64,000 bases of DNA from Flavobacteriales bacterium (lineage in GTDB: Bacteria; Bacteroidota; Bacteroidia; Flavobacteriales; UBA7430), in the NCBI GenBank assembly GCA_022425195.1, contig JAKMFX010000034.1:1-64000 (forward strand). The letters run 5' to 3'. The notes under the pieces were generated by a model that saw only the letters and a list, made by a program, of their open reading frames with translations, was not told where the DNA came from and searched no databases. Shown here one piece after another: positions 47,038 through 55,167 of this stretch. The translations under genes and the position numbers were made by a program. Positions within the stretch are counted from its first letter, which is position 1, and every line of letters starts with the position of its first letter.

Positions 47038-47207
47038 CTAAATCTTACTTTTCCTTTAGGGTATCTTTTTTTCCACAGCTGGATGCTTTCCATGTTAGGA
47101 AGGCTAATCTTGATTTTTTCTGTGTAGAAGACGATTTTCGGCTGTCTTTCTTTAATTGCTGAAATCAAATCTTCGGCTCGCTTGGTTGATAATCTTCTTC
47201 GGCTCAT
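47034..47207 (-). CDS. 57-aa basic protein, absent from ORF track
   Basis: Manual translation MSRRRLSTKRAEDLISAIKERQPKIVFYTEKIKISLPNMESIQLWKKRYPKGKVRFS*; fills the whole gap, stop overlaps photolyase stop. Confidence 0.6.
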   Translation of the reverse strand: MSRRRLSTKRAEDLISAIKERQPKIVFYTEKIKISLPNMESIQLWKKRYPKGKVRFS

Positions 47208-47225
47208 AATTTGTATATTAAATTC

Positions 47226-47256
47226 TTGGTAAAGTTATACAATTTGTATAAATTTG
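47226..47256 (+). promoter_or_regulatory. Promoter with MerR-type inverted repeat in the spacer
   Basis: TTG (47226-47228), N20, TAAATTTG (47249-47256); TATACAA-T-TTGTATA at 47236-47250. Confidence 0.7.
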
Positions 47257-47276
47257 ACAAACAAAACGTATACAAA

Positions 47277-47972
47277 ATGAAGAATTACTTAATTATAGGG
47301 GCCTCAGGGGGGATCGGACAAGCCATAGCAAGCCAGCTTCTTTACAAAAGCTACGCTGTTTATGCTACATTTTGTTCAAATCCCATCTCACTAGAGCATT
47401 CTAATTTGACGACAGGACATTTTGATGTTCTCAATTCTGATGAGTTTTCTTTCGATTTGCCTGAGGTTATTGACGGATTGATTTACTGTCCGGGAACGAT
47501 CAACCTAAAACCGTACAACGCTCTTAAGGATTCAGACTTTCTACATGAGTTCCAAGTCAACGTCATCGGTTTTAACAAAGTCATGAAGCTTGCTTTAAGA
47601 GCGCTGAAAAAGTCAGAAGGATCTTCGGTAGTAGGATTTTCTTCCGTCTGTGCACAGAATGGCTTTAGCTTTCATGCCTCTACGGCAGCCTCGAAGTCGG
47701 CCTTGGAAGGCTTATTTGTTTCTCTAGCAAAAGAGTTTTCACCCAAAATACGTTTTAACATCATTGCACCATCTATTATTAACACCTCCTTAAGCGCTCA
47801 TCTGCTTAATTCAGATTCTAAGAAAGATCGCATTGCGGCAAACCATCCGATTCCTCGTGTGGGGACTGCAAACGATGTCTCTTCCTTAGCATGTCATTTG
47901 ATTTCTGATGATGCTTCATGGATTACTGGGCAAGTATTTGCCGTTGACGGAGGTAAATCTAAACTACTATAA
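47277..47972 (+). CDS. Short-chain dehydrogenase/reductase
   Basis: YLIIGASGGIGQAIASQLL; STAASKSALEGLFVSLAKE; start refined to MKNYLI. Confidence 0.92.
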   Translation: MKNYLIIGASGGIGQAIASQLLYKSYAVYATFCSNPISLEHSNLTTGHFDVLNSDEFSFDLPEVIDGLIYCPGTINLKPYNALKDSDFLHEFQVNVIGFNKVMKLALRALKKSEGSSVVGFSSVCAQNGFSFHASTAASKSALEGLFVSLAKEFSPKIRFNIIAPSIINTSLSAHLLNSDSKKDRIAANHPIPRVGTANDVSSLACHLISDDASWITGQVFAVDGGKSKLL

Positions 47973-47973
47973 C

Positions 47974-48138
47974 ATGAATTTATTTAGCTTTTTTTCGCCC
48001 CGCAAGAAATTGCAACGCAAGTACAAAAACCTGTTGAAGCTTTCACACAAGTATTCACGTATCGATCGTAAGATATCTGACCAATACTTTAATGAAGCTT
48101 ACAAGGTGCTCCAGTCTCTCGAGAAATTACAAGGATGA
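47974..48138 (+). CDS. Lacal_2735-family small protein
   Basis: MNLFSFFSPRKKLQRKYKNLLKLSHKYSRIDRKISDQYFNEAYKVLQSLEKLQG. Confidence 0.75.
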   Translation: MNLFSFFSPRKKLQRKYKNLLKLSHKYSRIDRKISDQYFNEAYKVLQSLEKLQG

Positions 48139-48656
48139 AATGGTTATCAGTACTCACACTTATACTTACGTCAATGAGCATTACAGCACAAAGCATTCAT
48201 GAGTTGAGTTACCTCTCGATTGATGGAGAAACAATTTCAATGAAATCCTACGAGAACCAATATGTCTTGGTGGTTAATGTCGCTTCATTTTGTGGCTATA
48301 CTTCCCAATACGATGCCTTGCAGGAGCTTCATGAATCTCAAGAGAATCTGAATGTCATTGCATTTCCCTGCAACCAATTTGGAGCCCAAGAGCCAAACTC
48401 GGAGTCGGAAATTAAGGAATTTTGTTCTACAAAATTTTCCGTTGACTTTCCTATGTCGTCCAAAGTTGATGTGAAAGGATCGAAAGTCTCGCCCATCTAT
48501 CAATGGCTTACGCAGAAAGAACTCAACAAACTTGGAGACTTTGAAGTCTCGTGGAACTTCAACAAATTTTTGGTAGGCCCATCAGGAGAGTTGATCGCTC
48601 ACTTCCCGAGTAGTGTAAAACCTTTGAGTAACGAAATCACAAAACTCTTAAAGTAA
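48135..48656 (+). CDS. Glutathione peroxidase family protein
   Basis: NVASFCGYTSQYDALQELHE; FPCNQFGAQEPNSESEI; SWNFNKFLVGPSGE. Confidence 0.93.
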   Translation: MKWLSVLTLILTSMSITAQSIHELSYLSIDGETISMKSYENQYVLVVNVASFCGYTSQYDALQELHESQENLNVIAFPCNQFGAQEPNSESEIKEFCSTKFSVDFPMSSKVDVKGSKVSPIYQWLTQKELNKLGDFEVSWNFNKFLVGPSGELIAHFPSSVKPLSNEITKLLK

Positions 48657-48657
48657 T

Positions 48658-49128
48658 ATGTCGCATTTTCAGCTCACAAAAGTTCAGGACTTAAACACCG
48701 ACCTAGATACCATCTGGGACTTTGCCTCTTCGCCTAAAAACTTAAAAGAGATTACGCCGGACCACATGTTGTTTCACATCACTTCTGAGGTGGCAGAAAA
48801 AATGTATCCGGGAATGATTGTGACCTACGAAGTGGCTCCTTTGCTCGGGATAAAATTGGCCTGGGTGACGGAAATCACACAAGTTAAAGACAAGCATTTT
48901 TTTGTGGATGAACAAAAAGTAGGTCCCTACACTTTGTGGCACCACCAACACTTCTTTGAGGCGACGGAAACGGGAGTTCGGATGACGGACATCATTACGT
49001 ACAAACCGCCTTTTGGGATTTTCGGAAATCTATTGAACAGCTTAGTAATAAAAAGGCAATTAAATGCTATTTTTGACTATCGGAAGAAAGTGATGAATCG
49101 ATTATTTAATGATTCAAAACCCCTTTGA
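48658..49128 (+). CDS. SRPBCC-fold ligand-binding protein
   Basis: DTIWDFASSPKNLKEITPDHMLFHI; QKVGPYTLWHHQHFFEATETGVRMTDIITYKPPFG. Confidence 0.85.
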   Translation: MSHFQLTKVQDLNTDLDTIWDFASSPKNLKEITPDHMLFHITSEVAEKMYPGMIVTYEVAPLLGIKLAWVTEITQVKDKHFFVDEQKVGPYTLWHHQHFFEATETGVRMTDIITYKPPFGIFGNLLNSLVIKRQLNAIFDYRKKVMNRLFNDSKPL

Positions 49129-49146: not shown

Positions 49147-50043
49147 ATGAAAGTTATGGCACAGTATAGTATAGAACAGTTTTCTCAAATCACAGGAATT
49201 CCAAAAATCAACTTGCGAACCTGGGAGAATAGGTATGAATTTTTAATGCCTAAGCGTACAGATACCAACATCAGGGTTTACAATGATGAACTTTTGGTGA
49301 AAGGAATCAATACCCAGTTTTTGTTGGCGAACAACTTTAAGATTTCTCAGGTCAGTAAAATGACGGAAGAGGAAATGATATCACAGGTAGATTTCCTTGG
49401 GGAAGCCAAAGACATCCATGTAAAAGGAGGGTATTACATCAATAAGTTTTTAGAATCAGCAGTCAACTTTGACGAGTATTCTTTTCACAAGACTTTTGAC
49501 AAAGGCTATGTGGACATGGGGATCATTTCCTTTTATGATCTCGTTCTGATCCCTCTGTTGCAAAAAGTCGGTTTGCTGTGGCTGGTGAGTAAAATTTCAC
49601 CCTCACAAGAGCACTTTTTATCCGAGTTAATCAAACAAAAACTTTGTGCTTTAACCGATGCCATTGGGGCAAACAAAAAGTCGAAAAAAAGCACCTGGTT
49701 GCTTTTCTTACCCGAACGTGAGTTCCATGAAATCGGATTGCTTTTTGCTAAATTTTTATTGGTTCAAAATGGGTACAATGTCATCTATTTGGGAGATAAC
49801 CTACCCCTAGATTGTTTGGCTGAGGTTTCCGACAAACAAAAAGCAGAAAACCTATTGTTCTTTTCCATTTCAAATGTAAGCCTTTCAAGCATCAAAAATC
49901 ATGTTGAAAGGTGCAAGGAATACTTTCCGAAATCTAAAATACACGTGGTGACCAAAGGAACTAACCTGATGGAATTTAGTTCAGAGCATAAGGATGTTGC
50001 GTTTGTACATAATCTTGACGAATTCGTTGCCTGCATCAAATAA
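49147..50043 (+). CDS. CarH/LitR-like MerR regulator with B12-binding domain
   Basis: YSIEQFSQITGIPKINLRTWENRYEFLMPKRTDTNIRVY; WLVSKISPSQEH (Wx9EH); EFHEIG (ExHxxG). Confidence 0.9.
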   Translation: MKVMAQYSIEQFSQITGIPKINLRTWENRYEFLMPKRTDTNIRVYNDELLVKGINTQFLLANNFKISQVSKMTEEEMISQVDFLGEAKDIHVKGGYYINKFLESAVNFDEYSFHKTFDKGYVDMGIISFYDLVLIPLLQKVGLLWLVSKISPSQEHFLSELIKQKLCALTDAIGANKKSKKSTWLLFLPEREFHEIGLLFAKFLLVQNGYNVIYLGDNLPLDCLAEVSDKQKAENLLFFSISNVSLSSIKNHVERCKEYFPKSKIHVVTKGTNLMEFSSEHKDVAFVHNLDEFVACIK

Positions 50044-50149: not shown

Positions 50150-50650
50150 TTATTTCACAAACAAATACCCCCTCATCATTTGTGAATGTCCTGGATAGCT
50201 ACAGAAGAATTCATAATTTCCTTTAGCAGGAGCTTCGAATTCAAGCGTTACGGATTCGCCAGGATTGGCGATGTCAGATGCCGCAACGAGATCTTTATGA
50301 TTTGGAATGAACTGATTGTCAGCACCCGCTTCAATGGCTTTCATGGCAACTTCCTTACGAGTACCATAGTTGCAAATTAATATGTTGTGAATCATCGCAG
50401 GGTCTACACCTTCATTGTATAGCTCAATGCGTACCCATGATCCTTCTTCAACGGTAATGTTTTTTTCACTGAACATCATGTCTTGCATGGTATTTCCAGT
50501 CGCACTAAGTTCGAATTCTTCCCAAATCTTTTCTTCTTCTTGCTGAACGACTACAGGTGCAGGTTCTGCTGTGGTCTTTGTTTCTGAAGGTCCGCAGCTG
50601 GCCGCCACTAAAATACATGCTGCTACTAATGTCTTTGTATATATTTTCAT
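50150..50650 (-). CDS. Azurin/plastocyanin-like copper lipoprotein
   Basis: Lipobox VAASCG; IHNILIC and FFCSYPGHSQMM type-1 Cu ligands. Confidence 0.9.
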   Translation of the reverse strand: MKIYTKTLVAACILVAASCGPSETKTTAEPAPVVVQQEEEKIWEEFELSATGNTMQDMMFSEKNITVEEGSWVRIELYNEGVDPAMIHNILICNYGTRKEVAMKAIEAGADNQFIPNHKDLVAASDIANPGESVTLEFEAPAKGNYEFFCSYPGHSQMMRGYLFVK

Positions 50651-50663
50651 GTCTTATGATTTT

Positions 50664-50698
50664 GATACAAATTTAGTGTATAATTATTTAATACAAAA
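50664..50698 (-). promoter_or_regulatory. Azurin-gene promoter with TGTAT-N9-ATACA in spacer
   Basis: Minus strand TTTTGTATTAAATAATTATACACTAAATTTGTATC: TTG-N18-TAAATTTG with an inverted repeat between. Confidence 0.55.
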
Positions 50699-50792
50699 GT
50701 TATGCAAGATAATTTTAACGAAAGCGTTATTTTGCCAAACCTAAATGAGGGCTTAGGGCTGAAACTTTGATTGTATTTTAATGAAAGATGGG

Positions 50793-51206: not shown

Positions 51207-51902
51207 TTATGAATTTTCCCAAGTACCTTCTGTGTGGTACAGTTGAAAGCGAGAGAACAGTTCTTCGCTATACCAATTATAGGTTCGGGTCATTTCAATG
51301 GCTTTTTTGTGTGCTTTACTTTCGTAGGCATATTTTTTAATGGCTTCTGCGTTGTCCCATATGCTGAAGGTTGCCATTTGTTTAATCGGCATCTCACCAA
51401 TTCCCTTTTTGAATTTTAGGCCCGCTGCGTTTTCTATAGGTTTTTCAGCTGTGGGTACATAATTCCAAAATTTAATCAGGTGTTTGGTCTTTATGGTGGC
51501 TCTGGTGATGACCGCTATGGGAAGATCTTCAGTACTCAGTGAGGTAGATTTGACAAAGGGTTCTTTTTGAGACCACTGACCGTGTGCGGCAATGTTTTTC
51601 AGGAAATAGGTAATTTTTTCGGACGCCTTGTTGTTGTAGCGTTCCATCAGTTCCGATTTCGCAAGAAAGTCTTTTGCCTCAGACTCGGATTTCCAAACTT
51701 GAAGCAGGCAATACGTCGACCAATCCGGAAAGGGATTGAACCCCGATTTGTTTCCCGTGCCCATCAGTTTGTAGAACTCAAGGCCCCTCACATCATTCAG
51801 GTCTTTATGGGCATATTGCATCATTCCAAAGGCCCAGAATTTAGTGCTTAGGCCGTTATATCTAAAAAAGGTAAGTGTCGTTATTTGGTTTTGCTGGCTC
51901 AT
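51207..51902 (-). CDS. crtA: Spheroidene monooxygenase (CrtA) homolog
   Basis: FWAFGMMQYAHKDLNDVRGLEFYKLMGTGNKSGFNPFPDWSTYCLLQVW; overlaps cyclase gene by 4 nt. Confidence 0.85.
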   Translation of the reverse strand: MSQQNQITTLTFFRYNGLSTKFWAFGMMQYAHKDLNDVRGLEFYKLMGTGNKSGFNPFPDWSTYCLLQVWKSESEAKDFLAKSELMERYNNKASEKITYFLKNIAAHGQWSQKEPFVKSTSLSTEDLPIAVITRATIKTKHLIKFWNYVPTAEKPIENAAGLKFKKGIGEMPIKQMATFSIWDNAEAIKKYAYESKAHKKAIEMTRTYNWYSEELFSRFQLYHTEGTWENS

Positions 51903-53068
51903 AATGTTCTTTTGTAAGGGCGTAAAAAAGAGCTGAGGCGCTTTATAAGTGTTTTGGTAAAGGTGACGCGCGGAACCGCAAGTATAATGCTTAAGTCTTC
52001 GGCAAAGGAGGAAGACTCATCCAAGAACTTCAACAAGGTTTTTACGTCTGTTTTATCGAAAAGTCTTGAAAACAATTCTGCACCTCGAGCATTGTCATTG
52101 GCCAAAACATCCAATAAAAGTAGGTCATAGCCATTGTATTTGGTGCTGCTGTCAAAGTTTCTCAGATCCGATTGGCTTTTTAAGAAAGGGACGAGTTCTT
52201 TTGTTTTTTTTGCGCAATTGTAAAACGTATATCCCGTACTGGCCTTGGTCCACCCTCCGTTGGTTCCTATGTGAAGAATGTTCTTTGTGTTGTTGTTTCT
52301 AAATGGAAAGGCCGTCATGGGAATGGCGCCTTGTTCTTTTCTGTCGATCGTATACTCAGTGATTCCTCGTTTCTCTAAGTAATCTTTAATGCCGGCCTCA
52401 TAGGTCTCTTTGCTGAGTAATTTTTCTGAAAACAGGGTGTACTCAAAAAGGGCTTCATTTTCGCTTGTGGGCAAAACATACATGAATCTGGTGTTTCCCT
52501 CTTGAGGGATGTTGAAATCCATAAATGTAGCTGTGGAAGGGTCAAAAAATGGTTTTTTGGTTTTGATGAACCAACCCACAAAGTGTTGTTGAAGTACGGG
52601 GTACTTCTTTTGTGTTTTATAATCGGTGTAGTCGGAAATGCTATTGAATACTTTTGATGCTCGAAAGTGCTCTCCATCCGTATGAACACGAACACCGTCT
52701 TCATCAGCTTCGAGGCTCCTAACAGTTCCTTTTTGGAATTCGATGTGGGATTTCGATTCTATCACGGCCCATATTTTTTTATAAAAATCGGTGCTTAGAA
52801 TCATTTTGTAGGTGAAGGGCTGGATGGGAATTGTCTTTTCAAGTCCTTGCCCTGCCACATATATGGAGTTCCACGATTTTGAAACGATCTCATCCCATTC
52901 GCCACCGTCCGCTTCCCAAAAACACCAGGTGCGATCTTCCTGTTTTCTTTTTTCTGGGTCGATGATGAGGATTGATTTTTCATCAAAGAAAGAGTCCTTT
53001 GCCATTCGGTAGGCAAGCATCAATCCGGCAGCACCCGCTCCGGTAATTATATAATCGAAGTTCCTCAT
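51899..53068 (-). CDS. crtY: Lycopene cyclase (CrtY-type)
   Basis: YIITGAGAAGLMLAYRM; IGTNGGWTKASTGYTFYNC; FRNNNTKNILHIG. Confidence 0.9.
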   Translation of the reverse strand: MRNFDYIITGAGAAGLMLAYRMAKDSFFDEKSILIIDPEKRKQEDRTWCFWEADGGEWDEIVSKSWNSIYVAGQGLEKTIPIQPFTYKMILSTDFYKKIWAVIESKSHIEFQKGTVRSLEADEDGVRVHTDGEHFRASKVFNSISDYTDYKTQKKYPVLQQHFVGWFIKTKKPFFDPSTATFMDFNIPQEGNTRFMYVLPTSENEALFEYTLFSEKLLSKETYEAGIKDYLEKRGITEYTIDRKEQGAIPMTAFPFRNNNTKNILHIGTNGGWTKASTGYTFYNCAKKTKELVPFLKSQSDLRNFDSSTKYNGYDLLLLDVLANDNARGAELFSRLFDKTDVKTLLKFLDESSSFAEDLSIILAVPRVTFTKTLIKRLSSFLRPYKRTL

Positions 53069-53689
53069 TTAGAAAACTAAAAATACAGCGAAAAATACAA
53101 ATATAGATGCGAACACATGAAAAGAGATTTTTGCTTTAGAGTCGACCTCATAAGATTGGTAGCCTAAGTGAGCCAAACTACCTATGGCAAACCAAGCCAA
53201 GTAGTTTTGCAAGGGAACGATGCCCCCTTCAAACGCCCAAAAGTCAAACCTGGGTGCTGAGACTTCGATGACGACATCCAAAAGCGTCATGATGAAAGCG
53301 CCTGCACCTATTCTGATCCATTTGTTTTTGCTGAGGTATTTTGCCAGGTCTGCCGTCACCATGGTGAGCATACACCAGTTGAGGCAAATGATAAGGGGCA
53401 CACCCAGCACTTTGAAGCCCAAATTCGCCCCGTAGGAATAGGTCCCGAAAAGAAGCCCATAGTTGACGCCCAGCGCTTCTGTGATAAATCCCAAAAGAAA
53501 GGGGATGGCAAGTGCGTGAACAGTGTGCTTTGAAACGCCTTTTAGGTGGATGCAAAGGATGACAAAACTCAAGCTGAGGTTCAGTGGAGTGAGCATCAGG
53601 AACCAATCTTTTGCCGGCGAGAGTATGCCTATGATGCCAGAGATGGTGAACAACCAAAGCAGTCCTATAGAAATTTTTGTTTTTTGCAT
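53069..53689 (-). CDS. CruF-like carotenoid biosynthesis membrane protein
   Basis: LLGFITEALGVNYGLLFGTYSYGANLGFKVLGVPLIICLNWCML; within crt operon. Confidence 0.85.
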   Translation of the reverse strand: MQKTKISIGLLWLFTISGIIGILSPAKDWFLMLTPLNLSLSFVILCIHLKGVSKHTVHALAIPFLLGFITEALGVNYGLLFGTYSYGANLGFKVLGVPLIICLNWCMLTMVTADLAKYLSKNKWIRIGAGAFIMTLLDVVIEVSAPRFDFWAFEGGIVPLQNYLAWFAIGSLAHLGYQSYEVDSKAKISFHVFASIFVFFAVFLVF

Positions 53690-55167
53690 TAGCTATGATT
53701 TTTAGAGATCATTTCGGCCACAATTTTCCCGGACAACAAGCACAGTGGAATGCCGCCCCCCGGATGAACACTTCCTCCACAGAAATATAAGTTTTCGATC
53801 GAACTGCTGAAGTTGGGGTGCCTTAAAAAAGCGGCAAATTTTGAATTGCTGGCTGCGCCGTATAAAGAACCTTGATGGCTTTGTGTTTTTCTTTCGATCC
53901 GCTTTGGATCTAAAATCGATTCGTAGGTGATGAGTTTTGAAATATCTTCCCCCAGGATTTTGCTTAGTTTGCGAACGACATTTTCACGAGTACGGTCAAT
54001 CAGCTCGTCCCAATTTTGTCCTGTATTCCCGGGAACATTAATCATGGTGAACCAGTTTTCGCAACCTTCGGGAGCATCATTCGCCTCCTCTTTAGAGCTG
54101 ATGTTCACATATACGGTTGGATCGTCGGAAATGGTTTTCTGCTCAAAAATACAGTCGAACTCCTTTTTGTAATCACTGGAGAAAAAGATATTGTGCAGGT
54201 CCAGTTGTTGGAATTGTTTTTTGATGCCCCAATAAAAGATGAGTGCCGAACTGCTGCGCTCTTGTTTGAGTACTTTTTCAGGGGCCTTGTGTTTTTTTAA
54301 GAGTTTACGGTAACTGGGGACCACGTCGGCGTTCGAAATCACAAGATCTGCCCAGATGGATGCTTCTGGAGTTTTAATGCCCAGAACGCGATCACCTTCC
54401 GTTTCAATTTCTTCGACTTTGGTGTTAAATACAAATGTTACACCCAAATCTTTTGCCAGATGGTACAGGCATTCTGTGATTTTGTGCATCCCTCCAATGG
54501 GGAAATATGTACCTAGAGACTGCTCCAAATGGGGAATCATAGACATGATTCCAGGTGTCTGGTAGGGGGACGAGCCGTTATAGGTGGCAAAGCGATTGTA
54601 AAACTGCACCAATTTTGGGTCTTTGAATACCCTTTCGTTATGCTCCGATAGGCTGCTGTTGATGTTTAAGTAGGGAATGCTTAAAAGCGCTTTCACCATA
54701 TTTTTGGAAAGGTAGGTGCTTAATTTGTGCAATGACTTTTCTAAGAAGAGGGAGGCAGTGGCCTCGTATTTTTTTTGGCTGTTTTTCAAGTAATTGCGCA
54801 TGGTTTCTTCAGAGACATCAAAGGTTTTTGAGGCACTCCTAGCGAATTTCTCTGTGTCGGAAGGCGCCGAAAAGGTGGTTCCGTCATCAAAAAAATAATG
54901 GCAAATGGTTGATTTTTTTCGATACTTGAAGTAAGATGCAATGGGTTTATTCGCCAGTTCGAAAAGCTCTTCAATGAGCTTGGGTAGGGTAAACAGTGAG
55001 GGCCCCATGTCAAATCGATAACCCTCTGCAGAAAATTCTGTGAGCTTCCCGCCCGGGTAGGAATTGGCTTCGTAAACGTGGACTTGATGCCCTTGGCTTC
55101 GAAGTCGGATGGCGGCGGATAAGCCAGCAATTCCAGCGCCTACAATGATGATTTTTCGGTGTTCCAT
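53689..55167 (-). CDS. Phytoene desaturase family protein (CrtI/CrtD-type)
   Basis: KIIIVGAGIAGLSAAIRLRSQGHQVHVYEANSYPGGKLTEFSAEGYRFDMGPSLFTLP; GGSVHPGGGIPLCLLSGKI. Confidence 0.93.
   Translation of the reverse strand: MEHRKIIIVGAGIAGLSAAIRLRSQGHQVHVYEANSYPGGKLTEFSAEGYRFDMGPSLFTLPKLIEELFELANKPIASYFKYRKKSTICHYFFDDGTTFSAPSDTEKFARSASKTFDVSEETMRNYLKNSQKKYEATASLFLEKSLHKLSTYLSKNMVKALLSIPYLNINSSLSEHNERVFKDPKLVQFYNRFATYNGSSPYQTPGIMSMIPHLEQSLGTYFPIGGMHKITECLYHLAKDLGVTFVFNTKVEEIETEGDRVLGIKTPEASIWADLVISNADVVPSYRKLLKKHKAPEKVLKQERSSSALIFYWGIKKQFQQLDLHNIFFSSDYKKEFDCIFEQKTISDDPTVYVNISSKEEANDAPEGCENWFTMINVPGNTGQNWDELIDRTRENVVRKLSKILGEDISKLITYESILDPKRIERKTQSHQGSLYGAASNSKFAAFLRHPNFSSSIENLYFCGGSVHPGGGIPLCLLSGKIVAEMISKNHS

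Follow-up and report, generated by a model that had tools for sequence, protein, structure and literature searches.

The Operon and Its Promoter

The window analyzed here is the whole 64,000-nucleotide stretch of DNA from a Flavobacteriales bacterium, and it contains an operon that ends with the gene for a MerR-type regulator.

47277-47972, plus strand: SDR oxidoreductase, gene 1 of the operon (Pfam adh_short_C2, 1.3e-35)
47974-48138, plus strand: small Lacal_2735/DUF6435 protein (NCBIfam NF033487, 49 bits, cut-off 32)
48135-48656, plus strand: glutathione peroxidase-like protein (Pfam GSHPx, 5.7e-36)
48658-49128, plus strand: SRPBCC-like protein (label of the sequence-only reading; no family match)
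49147-50043, plus strand: CarH/LitR-like MerR regulator with a B12-binding-type domain (Pfam MerR_1 and B12-binding_2, fold match)

This gene content had been proposed in an earlier, sequence-only reading and is borne out by the Pfam and NCBIfam matches for all but the SRPBCC-like protein, and the CarH/LitR-like nature of the last gene product by its domains and a fold match to CarH. In relatives, the SRPBCC-like gene is a conserved partner with its own copy, 5' of the gene, of the N18 repeat described below.

A Bacteroidetes-type promoter consists of TTG and, after 17 to 23 bp, TANNTTTG. The region upstream of the SDR gene follows this pattern as TTG-N20-TAAATTTG, which is retained in G010, a genome of the same genus.

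47226-47228, plus strand: -33-like TTG, inside operator unit 1 (see below); the 20-bp spacing is also found in G010
47249-47256, plus strand: -7-like TAAATTTG, overlapping the left arm of operator unit 2; also found in G010
47236-47250, no strand: palindrome TATACAA-T-TTGTATA (TATACAA 47236-47242, T 47243, TTGTATA 47244-47250)

The earlier reading took the palindrome for a MerR operator within the promoter spacer, with a further copy of its arm just before the start codon. Each letter and coordinate of the promoter at 47226-47256 was verified, as were the perfect palindrome in the spacer and the copy, GTATACAA, at 47268-47275, just 5' of the ATG of the SDR gene at 47277. The palindrome was nevertheless rejected as the operator unit. 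The exact 15-mer is present as a single copy in the window and in the 1.77-Mb genome, and matches with up to 2 mismatches were obtained in 29 of 100 shuffled windows. The genome search that the earlier reading had suggested gave 7 sites with up to 2 mismatches, whereas the reversed control gave 11, and a search of 11 further genomes of the same family yielded no exact match. Thus, although its letters are real, the short palindrome is neither enriched nor conserved on its own. It was also noted that the promoter contains a further half-site, its fourth, at 47211-47217 (TTGTATA). This half-site had been overlooked and completes the pattern to 2 head-to-tail copies of TTGTATA-N18-TATACAA.

A 32-bp Wide Inverted Repeat

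Sequence comparisons indicate that the conserved unit is not the short palindrome but a 32-bp wide inverted repeat, TTGTATA-N18-TATACAA. Similarity to this unit was scored with a profile, R1, built solely from the sequences, on both strands, of 32 sites in other genomes, with the window's own genome excluded.

47211-47242, no strand: putative operator unit 1, TTGTATA-N18-TATACAA (R1 19.0 bits, genome-wide E 0.005)
47244-47275, no strand: putative operator unit 2, TTGTATA-N18-TATACAA (R1 20.7 bits, genome-wide E 0.0015; kept in G010)

The 2 units are arranged in tandem with 1 bp between them, giving a 33-bp period, and unit 2 ends 1 bp before the ATG. The palindrome at 47236-47250 is therefore formed where the right arm of unit 1 meets the left arm of unit 2.

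To define the repeat we used 30 loci, the window included, that encode close relatives of the MerR protein; the relatives were identified in a genome search, a contig scan with the regulator having found none. Among 64 TGTATA...TATACA pairs with spacers of 0 to 45 bp in these loci, 51 had a spacer of 18 bp and 5 the runner-up spacer, an excess with a nominal binomial p-value below 1e-70, although the related loci are not independent. The N18 pair was present in 29 of the 30 loci and in none of 11 loci from a more distant MerR clade. More weakly, the unit also reaches further inward, to TTGTATAAYTTTT...AAAARTTATACAA. The promoter in G010 reads TTGTATATTTAATTTTTGGTAAAGTTATGCAA-A-ATGTATAAATTTGACAAACAAAAGATATACAAAATG; here the short palindrome has 3 mismatches, yet both wide pairs are intact as TGTATA-N18-TATRCA. 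The identity of the predicted operator is strongly supported by these comparisons.

Tandem operators were examined as 23 distinct pairs, with spacings of 32 to 34, 40 to 42, 45, 50, 54, and 63 to 64 bp, which fit a 10.6-bp period. An equal regularity was seen in 0 of 20,000 random sets and, when the set was reduced to 14 pairs, in 0.5%, both figures being uncorrected for kinship. The helical period of the spacings suggests that the protein binds cooperatively along one face of the DNA. Tandem sites separated by whole helical turns (approximately 32, 42, 53, and 64 bp) were recorded at L043, L047, L050-L057, L060-L063, L093, L114, L171, L188, and L189.

The operator sequence does overlap a Bacteroidetes-type promoter, as had been claimed, but the "classic MerR position" was not upheld since the offset from the operator to TANNTTTG varies across relatives, with preferred values of -6, 4, 26, 38, and 45/46; the -6 class is partly part of the flank of the motif itself. 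Such varied offsets suit an occluding repressor rather than a MerR activator, which has to bind at one set place within the spacer.

An unannotated open reading frame of 56 amino acids is located on the minus strand at 47040-47207, divergent from the SDR operon, with its start 3 bp from unit 1. The stretch is mostly conserved in G010, and the translation had no Pfam match.

Sites Elsewhere in the Same Genome

Only 5 sites in the 1.77-Mb genome scored an E-value below 0.1 with profile R1, the next best having an E-value of 1.5. These were units 1 and 2 and the sites at an azurin-like gene, a PTPS-FolE gene run, and a photolyase operon. The azurin-like gene adjoins the SDR operon.

50676-50707, no strand: third putative operator, GTGTATA-N18-TATGCAA (R1 match at 50677-50703), 26 bp upstream of the azurin-like gene
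50150-50650, minus strand: azurin/plastocyanin-like cupredoxin, predicted target (Pfam Copper-bind, 2.4e-12)

Genes of the same cupredoxin family are located 3' of N18 sites in G005 and G116. The PTPS site lies 2 bp before the first gene of a PTPS-FolE-epimerase/DUF2867 run (L206). The remaining site opens a gene run that encodes a secreted DUF3105 protein, a DNA photolyase/cryptochrome, and a flavin reductase (L205:3133-7233, contig C10). This photolyase/cryptochrome is a second one. In Pseudomonas putida, the genes known to be induced by light and controlled by LitR include those for photolyase and FolE (PMC9758184). We found no rhodopsin gene in the window's own genome. Based on sequence matches, the predicted regulon is strongly supported.

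Predicted Targets in Relatives

The gene families adjacent to N18 sites in relatives supported the autoregulation proposed in the earlier reading at the level of site position, in that merR itself was the commonest target, with sites upstream of the gene in 24 loci. It was followed by genes for cupredoxin/fasciclin proteins (21 loci), a crtI-like desaturase (11), DUF2452 (8), SDR (7), SRPBCC (7), proteorhodopsin (6), PTPS (5), and a photolyase-like FAD-binding protein (3); YceI, PAS-UbiA, and glutathione peroxidase genes were found as well. Control of carotenoid genes is thus conceivable in those 11 loci, and no N18 site was found at the carotenoid cluster of the window (CrtD, CruF, and lycopene cyclase, 51207-55167).

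Proteorhodopsin genes were examined separately. A Bac_rhodopsin gene was present in 20 genomes of these lineages, and 18 genes had an intact, scoreable start. An N18 core with up to 2 mismatches was located within approximately 105 bp upstream of all 18 genes (L207-L223 and L202); 10 cores were perfect, 7 had one mismatch, and 1 had two. At the same stringency, a core was obtained in 3.6% of shuffled 160-bp stretches.

Co-occurrence of Sites and Regulator

Sites were counted in 248 genomes, 30 of which encode a close relative of the MerR protein. These 30 genomes contained 120 exact N18 sites compared with 13 in the reversed control, whereas genomes with only a distant relative contained 18 compared with 20. 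Within one family (f12), at least 2 sites were present in 7 of 7 genomes with the regulator and in 1 of 11 without it, all with at least 90% completeness (Fisher p = 2.5e-4). When 40 regulators were placed on a tree, 2 changes were needed to account for the N18 label. Furthermore, the regulator in G011, of the same genus (L066/L225), is a decayed fragment with 2 in-frame stops, and this genome contained no exact N18 site, an apparent joint loss of regulator and sites. No regulator was detectable in G034, which is 98% complete and has a one-mismatch site before its proteorhodopsin gene, nor was one found in the less complete genomes G245, G066, and G165, in which sites are present.

Short paralogs of the regulator, of about 200 to 240 amino acids, were noted in G053, G080, G106, G130, G150, G205, and G215, and second, short copies in G067, G116, and G125. 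They seem to have no Rossmann half, as the match covers only residues 1 to 189. N18 sites are located near the short paralog of G125 (L189). No N18 motif was found in a distant Flavobacteriales clade (L064-L074), where a quick search for gapped repeats upstream of the genes gave only TTGTT-N22-AACAA, in 4 of 10 cases (L067, L068, L069, and L071); going by the sequence, this is possibly the operator of those 4 regulators.

The Regulator Protein

The N-terminal winged helix of the window's regulator matched Pfam MerR_1 (2e-9, residues 7 to 75), and the protein also matched B12-binding_2 (3.5e-7). An AlphaFold model (pLDDT 89.1) contained a complete B12-type Rossmann domain, and the top Foldseek match was the CarH-AdoCbl-DNA complex 5c8e (E 2.9e-14), so that both the four-helix bundle and the Rossmann cobalamin-binding domain were recovered. 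The score against the NCBIfam CarH equivalog was 75.8 bits, far below the cut-off of 400 bits. The genome itself encodes a PduO-type cob(I)alamin adenosyltransferase.

Equivalents of Trp131, Glu141, His142, Glu175, and the lower ligand His177 are present. The light-response signature consists of GxxW, EH, GxxH, and GxxxP (PMC11796333). The regulator has GLLW, EH, and GDNLP, and its REFH has the histidine without the leading glycine. The position of His132, the upper ligand of the light state, is occupied by leucine and was never histidine in the aligned homologs. In L060-L063 the Trp131 equivalent is lost as well, and the operator is still found in 3 of these 4 loci. The H132A variant of TtCarH is still mostly tetrameric in light (PMC10442372), but CtMerR, which has arginine at this position, goes from tetramer to monomer in light (PMC11796333). 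A light response of the window's regulator is therefore possible, and its dependence on light and B12 is inferred.

A Model of Dark Repression and Its Alternatives

The architecture and conservation of the operator, the regulon, the co-occurrence with the regulator, the CarH fold, and the gene for AdoCbl synthesis are supported directly by the sequence comparisons and predictions above. The most likely interpretation is repression in the dark by promoter occlusion, relieved by light: tandem, abutting 32-bp operators over the promoter would be bound by the CarH-like MerR repressor in the dark and freed by light, a model to which we assign a probability of roughly 0.65. A dimer or tetramer would bind each half-site by its winged-helix domain, probably cooperatively and on one face of the helix. 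The bound protein would cover both promoter elements, -33 and -7, together with the start predicted at about 47260-47265, thereby occluding the promoter, and would repress its own operon, the azurin-like gene, PTPS-FolE, and the photolyase operon. Light would release it, probably because bound adenosylcobalamin is photolyzed and the protein no longer oligomerizes. In this model, the CarH-like regulator is presumed to be the protein that binds, repression is favored over activation, and light and B12 are the presumed signal. Counting against the model are the leucine in place of His132, the low score against the NCBIfam CarH equivalog, the genomes with sites but no detectable regulator, and the lack of a site at the window's carotenoid genes.

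The same operator and regulator could instead act without light sensing by B12, the input coming from another photoreceptor, redox state, or singlet oxygen, as for class II LitR with its LOV protein or CarA with CarS. This is unlikely, but it is the alternative that we take most seriously. The replacement of His132, the missing glycine in GxxH, and the retention of operators in L060-L063 without Trp131 would all fit, and class II LitR does act with a LOV anti-repressor (PMC9758184). However, the window's protein retains the equivalents of His177, Trp131, Glu141, His142, and GxxxP, a complete B12-type Rossmann domain was modeled, and the genome encodes the cobalamin adenosyltransferase. It is improbable that another transcription factor uses the repeat as its operator, with merR just one of its targets, as the sites in G034, G245, G066, and G165 might suggest: both within families and within genera, the number of sites tracks the presence of the close MerR clade, the decayed merR of G011 is accompanied by the absence of exact sites, merR is the commonest target, and the half-site fits TnnACA.

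We consider it very improbable that the regulator is a MerR-type activator that realigns the -33 and -7 elements from the short palindrome that the sequence-only reading took for the operator. A perfect palindrome is indeed located within the 20-bp spacer, but it is not enriched, has no exact match in the 11 other genomes of the family, and is broken in G010 where the wide pairs persist, and the position of the operator relative to TANNTTTG varies. A chance palindrome in AT-rich DNA would explain near matches to the short palindrome, which are expected by chance, and is scarcely credible given the N18 spacing in 51 of 64 pairs, the independent profile matches, and the 18 of 18 proteorhodopsin genes.

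Comparison with Known Systems

The repressor in the proposed model resembles CarH/class I LitR of Thermus thermophilus, Bacillus megaterium, and Myxococcus, which has in common with it a MerR DNA-binding domain, a four-helix bundle, and a Rossmann B12-type domain and, as is predicted here, an operator over promoter elements and autoregulatory and photoprotective targets. The CarH half-site TnnACA fits the arm TATACA of the window's operator (PMC9304148). However, characterized CarH operators are tandem 11-bp direct repeats, nnnnTnnACAn (PMC9304148), whereas those described here have inverted half-sites with an 18-bp spacer and are often doubled; the upper ligand His132 is absent, and the predicted targets include proteorhodopsin in relatives. 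TnnACA was found at -11 of the right arm in 1 of 186 cases, and a search for CarH-style 11-bp direct repeats in the SDR operon promoter found none.

Class II LitR of Pseudomonas (PplR1 and PmlR2) has the operator T(G/A)TACA-N12-TGTA(C/T)A, and its 2-part operators also overlap the promoter and 5' UTR (PMC9758184). Target kinds such as FolE and photolyase/cryptochrome are common to both. The window's operator does not match this pattern, having the half-site TGTATA/TATACA and N18 rather than N12, and class II LitR has no Rossmann B12 domain and relies on a LOV anti-repressor, whereas the window's regulator has the Rossmann domain. CtMerR of Chloracidobacterium is a MerR-B12 photoreceptor that likewise has no histidine at position 132 (PMC11796333), and its structure 8jbt was among the fold matches of the window's regulator. 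The classic MerR activators (MerR, BmrR, and SoxR) have the DNA-binding domain and a long-spacer promoter in common with the system described here, but the operator here is not fixed in the spacer, and its geometry and position point to occlusion.

Judged by sequence, the repeat is an operator of the CarH/LitR kind in a new form, whose inverted N18 layout differs from that of both CarH and class II LitR and whose light-related regulon is unusually clear. In this group, the operators of CarH-type proteins are probably inverted, with a wide spacer. This would extend the known plasticity of CarH-type DNA binding and would provide a precise 32-bp operator with an adjacent candidate regulator and a readable regulon, in lineages known largely from genomes. 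The operator is also a ready-made part for light-control work. In the open-access literature we found no link of CarH/LitR to flavobacterial operators or to proteorhodopsin control, which is not proof of absence. Through the predicted regulon, proteorhodopsin is linked with carotenoids, with photolyase, and with the synthesis of pterins. We tentatively suggest, at slightly less than even odds, that in several flavobacterial lineages proteorhodopsin is under direct dark repression by a CarH-like B12 photoreceptor, as are carotenoid, photolyase, pterin, and cupredoxin genes, and that the photoreceptor acts via helically phased wide inverted repeats unlike the described CarH operators. If so, a single regulator would couple phototrophy to photoprotection.
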